36,826 bases of DNA, taken from positions 1 to 36,826 of the IMG/VR virus record IMGVR_UViG_3300030107_001410. One strand, 5' to 3'. The stretch comes from a virus. Shown here in pieces: positions 3,997 through 30,684 of this stretch (positions are counted from its first letter, which is position 1; every line of letters begins with the position of its first letter). Position numbers and translations under genes: made by a program. The notes under the pieces were generated by a model. The model searched no databases. It saw only the letters and a program-made list of their open reading frames with translations, and had not been told where the DNA came from.

Positions 3997-6348
3997 ATGA
4001 CTATATCAAGTACAACAACGTCAGTAAGTTATACAGGAAACGGATCAACAACCGCTTTCCCGGTTACGTTTGCTTTTTTTGGAACTGGCACAAGCGCAGA
4101 AATAGAAGTCATAGAAAGAGTTATTGCTACAGGCGCAGAAACTACTAAGACATATTCTACTCATTACACTGTTACTGGAGGCAACGGTTCTACAGGTACG
4201 GTTACAGCGGGTTCTGCTCCAGCAGATACAGTACAATGGCACATTCGCAGGAAAACTACGCAAACACAAAATACTGATTATGTAGAAAACGATGCTTTCC
4301 CTGCTGAATCGCACGAAGAAGCCTTAGACCGTTTAACTATGATCAACCAAGAGCAAGAGGCTGATATAGCTAAATCTATTAGGTATTCAGATACATATAC
4401 AGGAGGAGCTTCGGCAACATTTCCCGACCCAGTAGCGGGAGCTTTTATCGCATTTAACTCTGCTGGCGATGGCATTACTACAAGCACAGACACAGCTTCA
4501 CAGTGGCTAGGTGGTGATGGAACTGTCAGCGCTCCGTACTATAGTTTTTCTAGCGACGTAAATTCGGGATTTTACAGAATAGGCTCAGATAATGTTGGGC
4601 TGACCCTTGGTGGCACAAAAAGAGTAGACTTTGGTGCAGCTACTACAGCCTTTAGTGGAGAGGTAACTGCAACAGGGTTCACTGGTACGTTAGATGGCAT
4701 TTTAGGAAGTGGAACTCCTGCGGCGGCAACGGTGGCGTCTTTAACATCAGGTGGTAATATTGTTTCTGACACAGATAGCACTGATGACTTAGGCACTAAC
4801 TCTGTTCGTTGGGCAAATCTTTACGTCGATGCCGTAACTACTACCGACAATACGACTATCGGTGGCAACCTTACAGTCACAGGAAACTTAACGATCAACG
4901 GCACAACCGTCACGAATGATGCCACTAATACAGAAGTAAAAGACCCTTTAATCGAGCTTAATAGTGGAGCAGGAAGCAATGCTAACGATCTGGGTATTAT
5001 CATGGAGCGAGGCTCTACCGGAGACAATACGTTCATGGGATGGGACGAGAGCGCAGATAAGTTTGCGTTTGGTACGACTACGGCAACGGGTTCGTCTACT
5101 GGTAATATCAGTTATTCGGATGCTCAACTATTAGCTGAAGGAGCAACATTTTCAGGCACGTCCCCCAATCTTGGTACAGTTACTACAATAGATATTAATG
5201 GCGGTTCAATAGACGGTGCAACAGTGGGTGCTGCATCGCAGACAACAGGACAGTTCACCAACTTAACAGGTACAGTGGTAACTGCATCCACATCTCTTGC
5301 ACTAGCAACTGGAGCAACGGTAACGGGTATTCTTGACGAAGATAATATGAGTACCGACAGCGCAACGCAATTAGCTACTCAACAATCCATCAAAGCATAT
5401 GTTGATACTAGCCAGAAAGCGCCCGGTATTTCTATGACTTGGGAAACTGACACAAGTGACAGTGACGCAGGAAATGGAAAAGTCTGGGCTAATCATGCAA
5501 CCCTTTCAAGTGCCACGGTTCTTTATTTTGATGACGTAGAGAACAATGGCGTTAGCATAAATGATTTAATTGACAGCCTTGACGATCCCACAGCTACAAA
5601 TTCAGCAATGATCTATATACAAGAGGCTGGCACGGGTGATGCTGGTGTAGTCTTTGCTGTAAGTGGTGCAGTTACAGACGCTTCTGGTTATTCTAAAGTT
5701 GCGGTGACTCACAAAGCTACGTTTGGCACTTTGGCTGATGGCGATACTATAGGCGTCATCTTTGCGTTTTCTGGAGATAATGGAAGTCTATCTGACCCTA
5801 TGTCTACCAGAGGCGATATTATTGTTCGTGACAGTTCCAATGCAACGGCAAGGCTAGCAGTTGGTTCAGCTAATACTGTATTAAAATCTGACGGAACTGA
5901 TGTCTCTTACGCACAAGTGGCAGGAGCAATGATAGCAAATGACGCTATCGACAGCCAACATTATGCAGATGGAAGCATAGACACGGCTCATATAGCTGCA
6001 TCTCAAGTAACTGGGCCAAAGCTAGGTGGGGGAGTTATCGGTGCTGTTGGATTTAGTGCAACGACATTTGATCTTGGCACTAATGCTTCTGGGACTGAAA
6101 CGCTTGATGAAAGCAATGGCAACTTTCAAAAAGGTGTGAATGGTGGAGCGCATACTTTGGCTCCTCAGTCGAATGACAGCACCATTGTCGTTCAGTACAC
6201 AAACAATTCTAGTGCTGGCACAATAACAGTTAGTGGCTATGACACTGTAACGGGCGATAGCCTCACTACAACCAATGGTCACGATTTCCTACTGTTCTCG
6301 ACTGTAATCGGTAGTTTTCAAAACCTTAATGTGGTGGCTTTGCAATAA
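3997..6348 (+). CDS. Tail fibre protein with T7-fibre N-terminal domain
   Basis: This 783-residue protein begins with the virion-attachment domain typical of T7 gp17-type fibres: residues 1-135 include VSYTGNGSTTAFPVTF, the YxVTGGNGSTGTV segment and NDAFPAESHEEALDRLTM, followed by a short polar helix. After that it is a Gly/Ser/Thr/Asn/Ala-rich beta-structured shaft with imperfect repeats such as GGNLTVTGNLTINGTTVT (about 289-306) and GTVTTIDINGGSIDGATVG. The C-terminal 150 residues differ in composition and are the likely receptor-binding tip. The ATG is preceded by TTGAGGTAATGAC. The stop overlaps the next start (TAATG). No chaperone-peptidase domain is recognisable. Attachment to the tail is family knowledge; the receptor is unknown. 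Confidence 0.88.
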   Translation: MTISSTTTSVSYTGNGSTTAFPVTFAFFGTGTSAEIEVIERVIATGAETTKTYSTHYTVTGGNGSTGTVTAGSAPADTVQWHIRRKTTQTQNTDYVENDAFPAESHEEALDRLTMINQEQEADIAKSIRYSDTYTGGASATFPDPVAGAFIAFNSAGDGITTSTDTASQWLGGDGTVSAPYYSFSSDVNSGFYRIGSDNVGLTLGGTKRVDFGAATTAFSGEVTATGFTGTLDGILGSGTPAAATVASLTSGGNIVSDTDSTDDLGTNSVRWANLYVDAVTTTDNTTIGGNLTVTGNLTINGTTVTNDATNTEVKDPLIELNSGAGSNANDLGIIMERGSTGDNTFMGWDESADKFAFGTTTATGSSTGNISYSDAQLLAEGATFSGTSPNLGTVTTIDINGGSIDGATVGAASQTTGQFTNLTGTVVTASTSLALATGATVTGILDEDNMSTDSATQLATQQSIKAYVDTSQKAPGISMTWETDTSDSDAGNGKVWANHATLSSATVLYFDDVENNGVSINDLIDSLDDPTATNSAMIYIQEAGTGDAGVVFAVSGAVTDASGYSKVAVTHKATFGTLADGDTIGVIFAFSGDNGSLSDPMSTRGDIIVRDSSNATARLAVGSANTVLKSDGTDVSYAQVAGAMIANDAIDSQHYADGSIDTAHIAASQVTGPKLGGGVIGAVGFSATTFDLGTNASGTETLDESNGNFQKGVNGGAHTLAPQSNDSTIVVQYTNNSSAGTITVSGYDTVTGDSLTTTNGHDFLLFSTVIGSFQNLNVVALQ

Positions 6349-19691: not shown

Positions 19692-19767
19692 GCTCAAAGC
19701 CTCTGTACGGGCTTATGAGCGCACAAAAAAGGCAGGGAAATATAAAAAATCCCTGCCCGCTGCCTTT
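19692..19767. terminator. Tandem hairpins; bidirectional terminator between convergent operons
   Basis: The first hairpin is GCTCAAAGCC (19692-19701) with GGCTT-A-TGAGC (19710-19720). The second is GGCAGGGA (19731-19738) with TCCCTGCC (19750-19757). The A-run at 19725-19730 becomes a uridine run for transcripts of the minus strand, a strong terminator for the block 22289-19770. For plus-strand transcripts the hairpin is followed only by CGCTGCCTTTAATT. AAAGGCA (19728-19734) can alternatively pair with TGCCTTT (19761-19767). Almost the whole gap is base-paired. Confidence 0.75.
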
Positions 19768-20211: not shown

Positions 20212-20456
20212 TATTTTGACTCCTGTTTTGCGCGTGAATATTTCTCAAGCTTAAGAACACCGCTTGCCCCATAATATCGCTTATGGCCGTTTTTGTGGAC
20301 GTGAATTTGACGAGAACCATGACTAGGCTTAGCTCTAAGATCAACAGTTCCGTCTTTTTTTCTTGGCACAAACAAATTGACTATTGCCGTCCAGTTATTG
20401 CGAAGGGCAATAAGTTTTTTACCCGTGCAGATTCTTGTAGAATGTATGTGTTGCAT
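20211..20456 (-). CDS. 81-residue basic protein, unknown
   Basis: The product MQHIHSTRICTGKKLIALRN... is rich in Lys, Arg and His (HKNGHKRYYGASGVLKLEKYSRAKQESK at the end). The ATG at 20456 follows AAAGGAGTCAAAATA. An upstream in-frame ATG at 20522 would cross the hairpin and palindrome of the intergenic cassette, so I reject it. The basic composition suggests nucleic-acid binding. Its stop overlaps the next ATG (TAATG). Expression is probably governed by the hairpin and palindrome just upstream. Confidence 0.6.
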   Translation of the reverse strand: MQHIHSTRICTGKKLIALRNNWTAIVNLFVPRKKDGTVDLRAKPSHGSRQIHVHKNGHKRYYGASGVLKLEKYSRAKQESK

Positions 20457-20534
20457 TATTTTGACTCCTTTTTTATTGATACAAAATTGTATCCCAAAGC
20501 CTCTGAAATTAATCAGAGGCAAGGGGATAGAATC
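20457..20534 (-). promoter_or_regulatory. Intergenic cassette: hairpin, palindrome, shared leader
   Basis: Read on the minus strand, this gap has three parts. An 8-bp-stem hairpin, GCCTCTGA/TCAGAGGC (20499-20520), comes first. A 16-bp perfect palindrome, GATACAATTTTGTATC (20478-20493), follows. The leader AAAGGAGTCAAAATA then stands before the ATG at 20456. The same order occurs at 20880-20956 and 21839-21915. It could be a terminator followed by an operator or secondary promoter, or an RNA control element. Confidence 0.65.
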
Positions 20535-20879
20535 CTAATCATTAACTGCTTTTGTAAATTTGAGGCGCAAGGATAACCAGTCAAAAACCACCTGTTCGCC
20601 GACTATGTAGGTATACATATTCACCACCTTTTCAGGGTTAGATAAATCAGTAGTTACTTGTCCGAAATTATCCTGCTCATATTCCTTGATTATATTGATG
20701 CAATCAAAGACATGATCGCCAAGCCATTGTGTAGCCTTGTAAGTGCCTATAATATAATAGTCCGTATTAAAGGCGTGGTGGTGCAGTTCTTCGTAGTTGT
20801 CATGAATCCAGTCGTCACTTTGCTCTGATATAAAATCTAAAAAGCGGTCTTTTATTTCATCATACTTATAATAAGACAT
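20535..20879 (-). CDS. 114-residue conserved-looking phage protein, unknown
   Basis: The product starts MSYYKYDEIKDRFLDFISEQ and contains EELHHHAFNTDYYIIGTYKATQWLGDHVFDCINIIKEYEQDNFG (about 30-75), a His/Tyr/Trp-rich helical pattern that I recall as recurrent in marine and environmental phage genomes with no known function. The ATG follows AAAGGAGTCAAAATA. It is flanked by two copies of the intergenic cassette, so it may be expressed independently of its neighbours. No catalytic site is obvious. Confidence 0.65.
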   Translation of the reverse strand: MSYYKYDEIKDRFLDFISEQSDDWIHDNYEELHHHAFNTDYYIIGTYKATQWLGDHVFDCINIIKEYEQDNFGQVTTDLSNPEKVVNMYTYIVGEQVVFDWLSLRLKFTKAVND

Positions 20880-20956
20880 TATTTTGACTCCTTTAATTTA
20901 GTATCCAAAACGATACCAGCGAGCAACCCTATTAAAGGTTGCTCTGTGGTATAGTT
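20880..20956 (-). promoter_or_regulatory. Intergenic cassette, second copy
   Basis: A hairpin with an 8-bp stem, GAGCAACC/GGTTGCTC (20921-20944), is followed on the minus strand by the dyad GTATCGTTTTGGATAC (20901-20916) and the leader AAAGGAGTCAAAATA before the ATG at 20879. The dyad keeps the five-base arms (GTATC/GATAC) and the TTTTG core of the other copies but swaps the arm order, so the symmetry and not the exact sequence is preserved. Confidence 0.6.
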
Positions 20957-21838
20957 CTAGGCGGTTAGTGCCTCGTCTTGCTCTTCTGCTATGGTTAGAA
21001 AGTCCGTTGCCTTTTGTGCGGCGGCGGCTGCTGTGAAAATAGCGTTCTTGTCTTCCTTGAGAACTTCAAGCCAGCTTTGTAAATACTTTACATGATCTAA
21101 CCTGACTGACTGACTAATGCCTGTTATGGCGCATAACATGGCGCTCGTTAGCTCTGCGATTAGTTCTTCCCCTGCATAAGGCTTTGAACCGAACCTATTA
21201 CCTAGCTTGCGATTTAAACGGGCAGGATGTCCAGTTGCGTGTCCTAACTCGTGAAATGCAGTTGAGTAATAACATTCTAAGGCCGTACTGGTTTTTGTCG
21301 CTGTAAAGTTTTCTTTGTTGGGTAAGTGTATAAAATCTTCTGTAGATGTATAAAACGCCCGGGCGCTGTTTGAATGTTTGATTGTTATACCGCTATCGAG
21401 CATAAGAGATTCGGCCACGGGGAAATCAGAAAAAGAGACCTTGGCCTCTGGCTCTAAAAACTTGCCTTTCTCAATTCCTTCAATTTGCTCAAGGTTAAAA
21501 ACGCTGTAACCTCGCAACACGAAGAACTTGTCCGTTACATCCCCGTTGGCGTCTTCTTTAACGATAGGCTTAAAAAAAACAATGTGAGTGGCTTTCTGGC
21601 CTTTTATGACTTTACCGCCTATCTCTCCCCATTGTTTATAAGTACCCCAATATGAGGAATTATATCCTGCCATTCCAAGCAATAACGTATTAATGCCTTT
21701 GTAAGGCTGATTCGACTTAATATTACGATCAGCACCTAAACAAAAAAAAGGTTTTTCCCATTCGCCGTGATCGTGATTGCTCTCAAGATGTGCGATAATC
21801 TTGTCTGTCACTTGTTGTTTAATATCTATTTTAGGCAT
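20957..21838 (-). CDS. ardC: ArdC-like antirestriction protein with zincin domain
   Basis: This 293-residue protein has the ArdC layout: an N-terminal ssDNA-binding domain (about 1-125, with GINTLLLGMAGYNSSYWGTYKQWGEIGGKVIKGQKATHIVFFKP and YSVFNLEQIEG) and a C-terminal metallopeptidase-like domain with FHELGHATGH (zinc-binding HELGH at 196-200) and the downstream EELIAELTSAMLC acidic ligand region. Plasmid ArdC protects incoming ssDNA from restriction. In a phage it would defend entering or replicating DNA. The ATG follows ACAGGAGTCAAAACTA. It is flanked by hairpin-palindrome cassettes on both sides. The family is assigned from motifs; phage function is inferred. Confidence 0.88.
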   Translation of the reverse strand: MPKIDIKQQVTDKIIAHLESNHDHGEWEKPFFCLGADRNIKSNQPYKGINTLLLGMAGYNSSYWGTYKQWGEIGGKVIKGQKATHIVFFKPIVKEDANGDVTDKFFVLRGYSVFNLEQIEGIEKGKFLEPEAKVSFSDFPVAESLMLDSGITIKHSNSARAFYTSTEDFIHLPNKENFTATKTSTALECYYSTAFHELGHATGHPARLNRKLGNRFGSKPYAGEELIAELTSAMLCAITGISQSVRLDHVKYLQSWLEVLKEDKNAIFTAAAAAQKATDFLTIAEEQDEALTA

Positions 21839-21915
21839 TAGTTTTGACTCCTGTTATTGATACAAAATTGTATCGTCATGCAGGGGAAATAAATCCCCTG
21901 CATTGCGATAGAATC
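21839..21915 (-). promoter_or_regulatory. Intergenic cassette, third copy
   Basis: A 10-bp-stem hairpin, ATGCAGGGGA/TCCCCTGCAT (21878-21903), can be extended by TATCG/CGATA. On the minus strand it precedes the palindrome GATACAATTTTGTATC (21859-21874) and the leader ACAGGAGTCAAAACTA before the ArdC ATG. The 16-bp palindrome is identical to the copy at 20478-20493. The extended stem borrows bases from one palindrome arm, so the hairpin and the palindrome can compete. Confidence 0.65.
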
Positions 21916-22086
21916 TTATTCGCTAATAGAATCAAGCATTGCTTGAATTGTCGTTACTGTTTTGCGAACTTCATCGGATTGGCGGTTTACAAGGTAACGA
22001 TGAAGGCTAAATAACTGCTTTGAAATATCTTCAACTGTTTGAATATCCTTTTCTCTTTTCCTGCTCAAATATCTTAAATTACGCAT
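21916..22086 (-). CDS. 56-residue helical protein, unknown
   Basis: The ORF encodes MRNLRYLSRKREKDIQTVED ... ISKQLFSLHRYLV ... TIQAMLDSISE. It is basic at the N-terminus and helical throughout. The ATG follows CTAGGAGTCAAAATA, the shared leader. Its stop is followed by the third cassette before ArdC. No family recognised; the leader and reading-frame composition make coding likely. Confidence 0.62.
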   Translation of the reverse strand: MRNLRYLSRKREKDIQTVEDISKQLFSLHRYLVNRQSDEVRKTVTTIQAMLDSISE

Positions 22087-22315: not shown

Positions 22316-22351
22316 TAGTCCTTAAATATAACCTACTGAAATTGTTGTCAA
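22316..22351 (-). promoter_or_regulatory. Strong early promoter for the minus block 22289-19770
   Basis: On the minus strand a consensus -35 box TTGACA (22351-22346) is followed by TATATT (22330-22325, 15-base spacer) or TATTTA (22328-22323, 17-base spacer). The start would lie near 22316, leaving a leader of about 25 nt with the GGAGTC ribosome-binding site. A TAGCATAT motif just upstream (about 22365-22371) resembles the operator-like sequence at 14201. The perfect -35 suggests sigma-70 host RNA polymerase use. Confidence 0.65.
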
Positions 22352-22753: not shown

Positions 22754-23110
22754 ATGGGTAGTCCTCCGAACAAGAAGAAGGGAGCTAAGAACAAGGTTCC
22801 TTATGAATTAAAGAAGGTAATGCGTGATGATTTAAGTCCGAAGGCTGTTGATCGTTTGAAGCGTATCATAGAAGACCCGGATAGTGGTGGCACTGTATTG
22901 ACTAAGGCTTTGGAGTTAGTATTGGCTTATGGGCATGGTAAACCGCAGAGTCAGCAGTTGGTAGGCATAGAGGCAGGGCCACAATTGAGTAAATTGATGG
23001 TCAGGTTTATGTCTCCTAATGAGAGTATTAAGGACGTGAAGGCTGCTAATGCGGAGGTAATACAGCATTTAGACCCTGATAATCCTAAACGTAAGACTGC
23101 TTTGAACTAG
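22754..23110 (+). CDS. terS: Putative terminase small subunit
   Basis: This 118-residue protein starts MGSPPNKKKGAKNKVPYELK. Basic residues lead into a helical segment (MRDDLSPKAVDRLKRIIEDPDSGGTVLTKALELVLAYGHGKP, about 28-70) that could be a DNA-binding helical bundle, followed by a more acidic tail. Position directly upstream of the large subunit and downstream of the repeat-rich region fits a small terminase that recognises the packaging site. I chose the ATG at 22754, preceded by ATAGGGGTTGTT; the frame is open upstream to 22703. The stop shares a base with the GTG start of the next gene. Sequence similarity to named families is not certain. Confidence 0.6.
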   Translation: MGSPPNKKKGAKNKVPYELKKVMRDDLSPKAVDRLKRIIEDPDSGGTVLTKALELVLAYGHGKPQSQQLVGIEAGPQLSKLMVRFMSPNESIKDVKAANAEVIQHLDPDNPKRKTALN

Positions 23111-23532
23111 TGCGGGAGTATATTGAGGGTGTTATTACCCCTGAAGAGGCAAGTAATTTATCTAATACTATCGGCTATCTTGATTTTACAGATACTAGGT
23201 TGGGTGGTATATTGGATATTATCAGGGGTTTTGCTGATGTTCGTCTCTGGAAGCCTTCATATGTACGAGTGGAGGAGAACAGGTTAGGCCATCCTTGGCA
23301 TATAGATCAGGGCAATACGGGACATATGACTTGGTGCGATTACAGTGCCAGCGTTTTATTAAGCCATCCTAGTAAGTTTGACGGCGGGGGTTTTTATTTT
23401 TTTGGTGACGAAGAGCCGACTTATCATTATTGTGATTTGTTATTATATGATAGTCACCCTAGTAACAAACACTGTGTTAAACGCAATTCAGGAGGGAGAA
23501 AGGTCTTGTTGATGTTCTTTAACTCGTTATGA
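23110..23532 (+). CDS. 2-oxoglutarate/Fe(II)-dependent oxygenase-like protein
   Basis: This 140-residue protein has the double-stranded beta-helix metal site of the 2OG-Fe(II) oxygenase superfamily: HPWHIDQG (H64-x-D66), a distal histidine in SNKHCVKR (H121), and R130 nine residues later in SGGRKVLLMFF, placed to bind 2-oxoglutarate. The FDGGGFYFFGD segment (90-100) is the typical strand-turn before the distal motif. It resembles prolyl-4-hydroxylase-like phage proteins but is short. The substrate is unknown: protein, nucleic acid and small molecule are all possible. It lies between the terminase subunits, with one-base overlap upstream (TAGTG) and ATGA overlap downstream, so it is made together with the packaging motor. 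Confidence 0.75.
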   Translation: MREYIEGVITPEEASNLSNTIGYLDFTDTRLGGILDIIRGFADVRLWKPSYVRVEENRLGHPWHIDQGNTGHMTWCDYSASVLLSHPSKFDGGGFYFFGDEEPTYHYCDLLLYDSHPSNKHCVKRNSGGRKVLLMFFNSL

Positions 23533-30048: not shown

Positions 30049-30058
30049 TTAAAAAGCT

Positions 30059-30089
30059 GGGAGGGGCAAGTGCCTCTCCCTTCTTTTCT
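30059..30089 (+). terminator. Intrinsic terminator after the capsid genes
   Basis: GGGAGGGGC (30059-30067) pairs with GCCTCTCCC (30072-30080) through nine pairs with one G-U, an AAGT loop, and a TTCTTTTCT run (30081-30089). The next gene's ribosome-binding site, TAGGAGAAAGCA, starts right behind it. Partial termination here would lower expression of tail genes relative to the capsid proteins, the arrangement known from T7 around gene 10. Confidence 0.85.
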
Positions 30090-30102
30090 ATAGGAGAAAG
30101 CA

Positions 30103-30684
30103 ATGGCTTCTGAAGTGCAGATATGCAATTTAGCATTAGCTAAAATAGGCGATCAGCAAATAATTTCCTTAACAGAAAACAGTAAAGCAGGGCGTTTATG
30201 CAACCTTGTTTATGAGCCTATGAGAGATGCGGTGTTAAGGTCGCACCCTTGGAACTTTGCAGTAAAGAGAGAAACGCTTGCATTAGATACTACTGCCCCC
30301 GCATACGAATATACCTCAAGGTTTGCATTACCAGTTGATTTTCTGCGTCTTCTTAAAACTAACATGGTAGACACAGCCGCTTTTGTTTTAGAAGGACAAT
30401 ACATTCTGTGTGATGCAGATACTTTAATTATTAAATACATACGGCAAGAAACTGACCCAGAAACATTTGACCAGTTATTTATAGAAACTTTAGCGGCAAG
30501 AATAGCGGCGGAACTAGCTATATCATTAGCAGACAGCCGCACTATGTCGGTAGATTTGTTTAATTTGTATGGAACAAAGCTGTCTGAAGCTAGGACGGTT
30601 GATGCAACAGAAGGAACACCAGACGATATAACCGCAGACACTTGGTTAAACTCCCGTATTAGTTTTGTAGGCACGGGGGCTTAA
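30103..30684 (+). CDS. Tail tubular protein A-like (T7 gp11-like)
   Basis: The 193-residue protein starts MASEVQICNLALAKIGDQQI and contains NLVYEPMRDAVLRSHPWNFAVKR (about 35-57) and FALPVDFLRLLK (about 75-86), the conserved elements of tail tubular protein A/adaptor proteins. It forms the ring that joins the portal to the tail nozzle. The ATG follows TAGGAGAAAGCA, right behind the capsid terminator. The stop is one base before the GTG start of the nozzle protein. Length is as expected. Confidence 0.85.
   Translation: MASEVQICNLALAKIGDQQIISLTENSKAGRLCNLVYEPMRDAVLRSHPWNFAVKRETLALDTTAPAYEYTSRFALPVDFLRLLKTNMVDTAAFVLEGQYILCDADTLIIKYIRQETDPETFDQLFIETLAARIAAELAISLADSRTMSVDLFNLYGTKLSEARTVDATEGTPDDITADTWLNSRISFVGTGA

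Follow-up and report, generated by a model that had tools for sequence, protein, structure and literature searches.

Structured or conserved sequences at gene borders have been described in several phage and mobile-element systems. In the early RNase III sites of phage T7 (R0.3, R0.5, R1, R1.1 and R1.3), irregular hairpins with an internal loop, similar in size to the elements analysed below, lie between polycistronic early genes, several per operon. RNase III cleaves R1.1, a 60-nt RNA whose internal loop measures 4/5 nt (PMC6121014), and cuts by E. coli RNase III have been proposed to leave stabilising 3' and 5' hairpins (PMC5371410). The PeSLs of T4-type phages, as summarised in PMC4503421 (Arbiol 2010; Comeau 2014), are intergenic stem-loops tied to gene shuffling that combine an early promoter with a terminator-type stem-loop. 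Lambdoid boundary sequences are short conserved sequences at gene borders that provide homology for exchange. In integron attC cassettes, a gene is joined to a structured element with a variable tip, all on the same strand, and the element stays with the preceding gene.

The locus analysed here resembles each of these systems in part. The window, i.e., the whole 36.8-kb virus record under study, encodes a terminase with 45-49% identity to those of HTVC010P-type pelagiphages. On its minus strand, seven small genes form an operon (22289 to 19770) with an element in each of three gaps (A, B and C). As in T7, an irregular hairpin of ~20 bp with an internal loop is predicted between genes of a polycistronic phage mRNA, and T7 R sites put through the same folding have an equal size and layout (an upper stem of 9-12 bp, then an internal loop and a lower stem). 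Unlike the elements here, none of the T7 sites had the second dyad described below (M-R) according to our structural descriptor, and cleavage, proven for T7, is here a prediction from sequence and folding. At the coordinates that we take to be those of the T7 R sites, most show CTCAAGG..CCTTTATGATT, which bears no likeness to the elements. To judge by the title of Chelladurai 1991, a reference in PMC6121014, accurate cutting does not depend on the CTCAAGG-type sequence. The elements are associated with gene shuffling, as PeSLs are, but in contrast to PeSLs as summarised in that source, no promoter was found in them (none of the nine promoter-like sites in the window spans a conserved part of the dyads) and their U-run is not conserved. 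They differ from integron cassettes in that no integrase was found among the window proteins scanned and no attC core in types A and C. The repeated leader of the operon could serve as exchange homology like a lambdoid boundary sequence, although the border here is predicted to be partly a structured, two-state RNA element.

The operon and its intercistronic elements

The features of the operon are listed in Table 1. Its likely sigma70-type promoter is kept in two relatives (L007 and L008), and its TTGACA site was not among the results of a consensus promoter scan of the window. In L006 and L007 as well, the 3' end of the 114-aa gene is marked by an A-type element. This gene has relatives far outside the marine environment, in phages of Lactococcus and Enterococcus; for the one in PMBT69, identity is 53% across 66% of the protein. 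Elsewhere in the window, a small 2OG-Fe(II) oxygenase-like gene (23110-23532, plus strand; weak match, E 7e-5) lies directly upstream of the terminase large subunit, with a close copy at the same place in L006.

An initial annotation had described, at these three minus-strand sites, a GC-rich hairpin, a 16-bp dyad and the leader GGAGTCAAAA in this order. The sites and their order were confirmed, as were the lack of common sequence among the hairpin stems (8-10 bp tips) and the swapped arms of one dyad (B) with its symmetry kept. The hairpin and the dyad, however, do not appear to be separate parts: the left arm of the dyad also serves as the 3' strand in a longer hairpin, which extends from the stop codon of the preceding gene. 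Each gap is predicted to form one irregular hairpin of ~22 bp with a left arm (L), a variable tip (H) and a right arm (M). The RNA folds begin with an outer helix that includes or abuts the upstream stop codon, followed by a 1x1 pyrimidine mismatch, a helix of 5-6 bp, a 2x2 or 3x3 internal loop and a tip of 8-10 bp with unrelated sequences among the elements. No shuffle was as stable as the native fold in any of the three cases (z-scores against shuffles in Table 1). The exact 16-bp dyad had four strand-matches at <=3 mismatches against 0.53 expected, a number reached by 0 of 100 shuffles.

Table 1. Positions of the elements, leaders and genes of the operon, with predicted helices and folds
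Feature	Position	Strand	Details	Fold (kcal/mol; z)
Early promoter, likely sigma70-type	22323..22351	-	TTGACA 22351-22346, TATATT/TATTTA 15-17 nt on; by eye	
Element C, predicted long irregular hairpin	21859..21921	-	From stop codon TAA 21918-21916 of 56-aa gene; tip stem 21903-21894/21887-21878; M-R dyad GATACAATTTTGTATC 21874-21859	-31.6; -7.07
Ribosome-binding leader after C	21836..21852	-	AGGAGTCAAAACTAATG	
ArdC-like antirestriction gene (293 aa), between C and B	20957..21838	-	Pfam ArdcN + MPTase-PolyVal; PHROGs phrog_7245	
Element B, predicted long irregular hairpin	20901..20960	-	From stop codon TAG 20959-20957 of ArdC; outer helix 20960-20954/20911-20905; middle 20952-20947/20918-20913; tip 20944-20935/20930-20921; U20953-C20912 mismatch; M-R dyad GTATCGTTTTGGATAC 20916-20901	-31.4; -5.85
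Ribosome-binding leader after B	20877..20892	-		
114-aa gene of unknown function, between B and A	20535..20879	-	phrog_10208	
Element A, predicted long irregular hairpin	20478..20540	-	Over stop codon TAG 20537-20535 of 114-aa gene; tip 20520-20513/20506-20499; M-R dyad GATACAATTTTGTATC 20493-20478	-29.8; -4.82
Ribosome-binding leader after A	20454..20469	-	AGGAGTCAAAATAATG	
Intrinsic terminator, ordinary, closing the operon	19725..19757	-	GGCAGGGA..TCCCTGCC TTTTTT (six Us)	

A descriptor of the L-H-M hairpin and the M-R dyad, holding no sequence information, recovered all three elements and one ordinary terminator-like site in the window, compared with 0.21 sites per shuffled genome (100 shuffles). 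This descriptor had been tightened after a first, looser version was seen to give 5.4 sites per shuffle and was thus too noisy; the sites in L009 and L012 described below were not used in this tuning. An Rfam search of the window found no family above the gathering cut-off.

The leader, proposed earlier as the third part of a cassette, is found in the form GGAGTCAA upstream of all seven operon genes, including four without a hairpin. Because it stands before every gene, hairpin or none, AGGAGTCAAAATAATG is best regarded from its distribution as the ribosome-binding leader of the whole operon and not as part of a cassette.

Conservation, alternative pairing and gene exchange

Relatives were found by pattern scans of viral contigs and by a search for ArdC relatives, and are mostly short metagenomic contigs. 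A-type elements occur in L006 and L007, and B-type elements in L007 and L008. Homologous elements also occur in an AT-rich, integrase-bearing phage group (L085, L101, L103, L106 and L107; 31-32% GC; one or two copies per contig), in which we read a tyrosine-recombinase-like gene in L101, L103 and L107, and probably in a Zobellviridae-like contig, L111, whose terminase is about 70% identical to those of Zobellviridae such as CW02. L111 scored weakly (22.5 bits) against our covariance model R1, with the stop codon, fold and dyad all in place. In L085 (plus strand), two near-identical elements (4373-4388 and 4862-4877) lie 489 bp apart with one gene between them, and the gene with its element could therefore be a duplicated or exchangeable unit.

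The covariance-model search that had been suggested for related phages returned 14 elements at E < 1e-11, 12 of which were the model's own input; the new finds were L106 (identical to the second copy of L085) and the second L101 copy. Element C scored 75.7 bits, although it also belongs to the input. Across the 14 elements (13 distinct), 93% of cells pair, and both sides have changed in 13 of 18 pairs, which bears out the earlier suggestion that structure rather than sequence is under selection. The covariation score was 0.543, against 0.200 +/- 0.028 in shuffles and <=0.146 in slid controls; this result leans favourably because the structure was derived from 12 of the 14 tested sequences, while the gap to the slid controls is large. 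Several elements are related by descent (A, C and the A-type elements of L006 and L007 have L/M/R letters in common), and the L/M/R letters (GATACAATTnnGTATC) are conserved beyond structural need.

Arm M (GGGATAC, CGATAC or TGGTATC) doubles as the left half of the 16-bp dyad. By modelling, M can therefore pair either with L, forming one long hairpin, or with the downstream arm R, forming two small hairpins, and compensatory changes preserve both the L-M and M-R pairings. Folding favoured the long hairpin by about 7-10 kcal/mol in the window elements; in L107, the two-hairpin form was the minimum-energy fold. When the first 17 nt were masked, the tip and M-R folded in all 11 elements tested, and a piece starting at M, folded alone, formed a hairpin of about 5 to 8 kcal/mol. 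The ribosome-binding site was free in both states. In the A-type dyad of L007 (GATGCAATCTTGCATC), one pair is changed on both sides (GATAC/GTATC to GATGC/GCATC), with P about 0.02 for six random transitions touching the dyad yet leaving it intact. Moreover, the arms are inverted in the B-type dyad (GTATC..GATAC), and one C retained in M finds a partner in the dyad but is mismatched in the long hairpin. The dyad thus seems to be kept for its own sake. MAFFT misaligned the A and B types as bare 16-mers because of the inverted arms, and the M-R pairing is therefore argued case by case.

A fourth group with the same architecture and unrelated sequence was found by the descriptor in L009 and L012, distant contigs with a terminase 32-35% identical over part of the protein. 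Their element comprises a 24-bp hairpin and a 7-bp dyad, again at the stop codon, and M has a bulged A that finds its partner in the dyad alone. A 90-bp element and leader are 94% identical between the two contigs, with unrelated genes on both sides. A second intergenic hairpin follows ArdC in L009 (6861-6935) and at the same place in L010 and L012, with stem changes compensated between L009 and L010/L012; downstream of it, ATCCTA could pair with the right arm of the stem or with the ribosome-binding site.

Beyond these groups, most loose dyad-pattern matches in viral contigs (L082-L084, L086-L098) lay in coding sequence or lacked the fold, and a scan of bacterial and archaeal species genomes for L, M and R gave nine matches, none with the architecture, which were treated as chance. 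The descriptor found no sites in HTVC010P, Venkman, HTVC106P, P26218 or T7, and two in CW02, neither of which fits. The DNA of the L085 and L009 elements was unmatched among isolated phages, to which the operon showed weak matches only (the best within the 114-aa gene, common to a Lactococcus phage), and none of the closest isolates carries the element. A plasmid search gave three marginal short matches (E 0.7).

All copies examined have a single orientation and lie at the 3' end of the preceding gene. Nearly all elements have the stop codon at the 5' edge of their hairpin; the end of the codon lies 2-6 nt before the L arm in the descriptor-found elements except L107, and it is 3 nt further off in one L101 copy. 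In blastn comparisons of the operon with L006, L007 and L008, homology blocks began at a leader and ended at the next leader or ATG (leader + ArdC + B; leader + 114-aa gene + A; leader + 57-aa gene; promoter + leader), and leaders without hairpins bounded blocks equally well. The element stayed with the preceding gene, whereas each relative has another gene in place of the following one. ArdC is the promoter-proximal gene of the operon in L007 and L008 and lacks an upstream element there, which speaks against control of the gene that follows, as had been supposed. These sequence comparisons support the view that leader, gene and element behave as a shuffling module. Similar elements recur in phages that are not related to one another, between genes that are not related either, and so resemble reusable punctuation marks.

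Possible modes of action

The best model that we can offer, tentative and somewhat short of an even chance, is T7-style punctuation by RNase III, in which the cut frees M to form a protective 5' hairpin. Each element would act as RNA punctuation within the polycistronic early mRNA, marking the 3' end of a gene. Host RNase III would cut the long hairpin close to its internal loop, as it does at the early R sites of T7, leaving structured RNA at the 3' end of the mRNA of the preceding gene. With L then on a separate molecule, M would pair with R, and the next mRNA would acquire a 5'-terminal hairpin that may slow 5'-end-dependent decay. During termination at the stop codon, a ribosome would sit on L and thereby keep the RNA in the two-hairpin state, so that translation could delay cutting. 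We favour this model because the U-run is not conserved, a terminator scan misses the sites and the operon has its own terminator, and because the T7 sites are alike and a hairpin proposal exists for E. coli (PMC5371410). Among the options of the initial annotation, processing sites giving each gene its own mRNA thus fare best, whereas the three-part cassette does not hold and the terminator and operator are disfavoured for the reasons given below. Against RNase III, its recognition is not predictable from a fold, the two-hairpin minimum of L107 would make a poorer substrate, and the L/M/R letters are conserved beyond structural demand.

It is rather unlikely that RNase III has no part and that the element is itself a translation-gated switch that sets how the next gene is translated or transcribed (coupling or polarity control). 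A terminating ribosome would cover L, so that translated mRNA would carry H and M-R, and untranslated mRNA the long hairpin. The near-constant stop codon at the 5' edge and the flip of the fold upon masking of the ribosome-covered part are consistent with such a switch, yet with a ribosome-binding site free in both states, an effect on the next gene is not obvious. In the compact gaps of phages, a hairpin could also come to lie at the stop codon for other reasons, and the stop codon of one L101 copy is displaced.

Intrinsic termination or attenuation, in which the long hairpin and AATTTTG would end some transcripts after each gene and so grade operon expression, is quite unlikely. Although the window elements have a GC-rich tip followed by TTTT and lie directly after genes, AATTTT is replaced by AATTAA in the AT-rich group, AATTCC in L111 and GTATTT in L009, and the Us in the window elements are paired within the hairpin itself. 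The terminator scan listed none of the three elements, the operon closes with a proper six-U terminator, and M-R pairing would be left unexplained. Elsewhere in the window (30049-30105, plus strand), a hairpin (GGGAGGGGC..GCCTCTCCC, AAAAG/CTTTT flanks) directly after a gene, kept in L067, has a T-rich tail that can also pair with the next ribosome-binding site AGGAGAA; it looks like a terminator that may also mask this site.

Could the hairpin and leader serve solely as homology or structured, attC-like single-stranded DNA for cassette exchange, with no role as RNA? The leader-to-leader homology blocks, the sharing of only the 90-bp element and leader between L009 and L012, and the likeness of same-strand gene-element units to integron cassettes argue for this. 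However, no site-specific recombinase was found among the window proteins scanned, no RYYYAAC/GTTRRRY core was seen by eye in types A and C, hairpin-less leaders delimit blocks equally well, and both the constant position relative to the stop codon and the two alternative states point to a function as RNA; we consider this explanation improbable. A DNA operator for a phage or host repressor is highly improbable: the dyad comes close to a perfect DNA palindrome and unrelated phages also carry GATACAATTnnGTATC, but the half-sites are inverted in B, the L007 change (GATGC..GCATC) is compensated, promoter-like sites number 9 in the window against 8.9 in shuffles (consensus scan), and the L-M covariation, with the whole hairpin covarying as RNA, would be unexplained.

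More broadly, there is a possibility, appreciable if well below even, that these loci represent a new class of stop-codon-anchored, two-state intercistronic RNA elements in unrelated marine phages, with the state set by translation termination and/or RNase III, which would also act as cassette-exchange borders. If so, phages would possess a modular system of a gene plus a switchable 3' mark. How one early promoter gives small counter-defence genes individual expression and mRNA lifetime is poorly known outside T7 and T4, as is how genes are swapped without loss of expression control. A conserved two-state mark at the stop codon would yield base-pair predictions, and the covariance model and descriptor can find such borders in uncultured phages.
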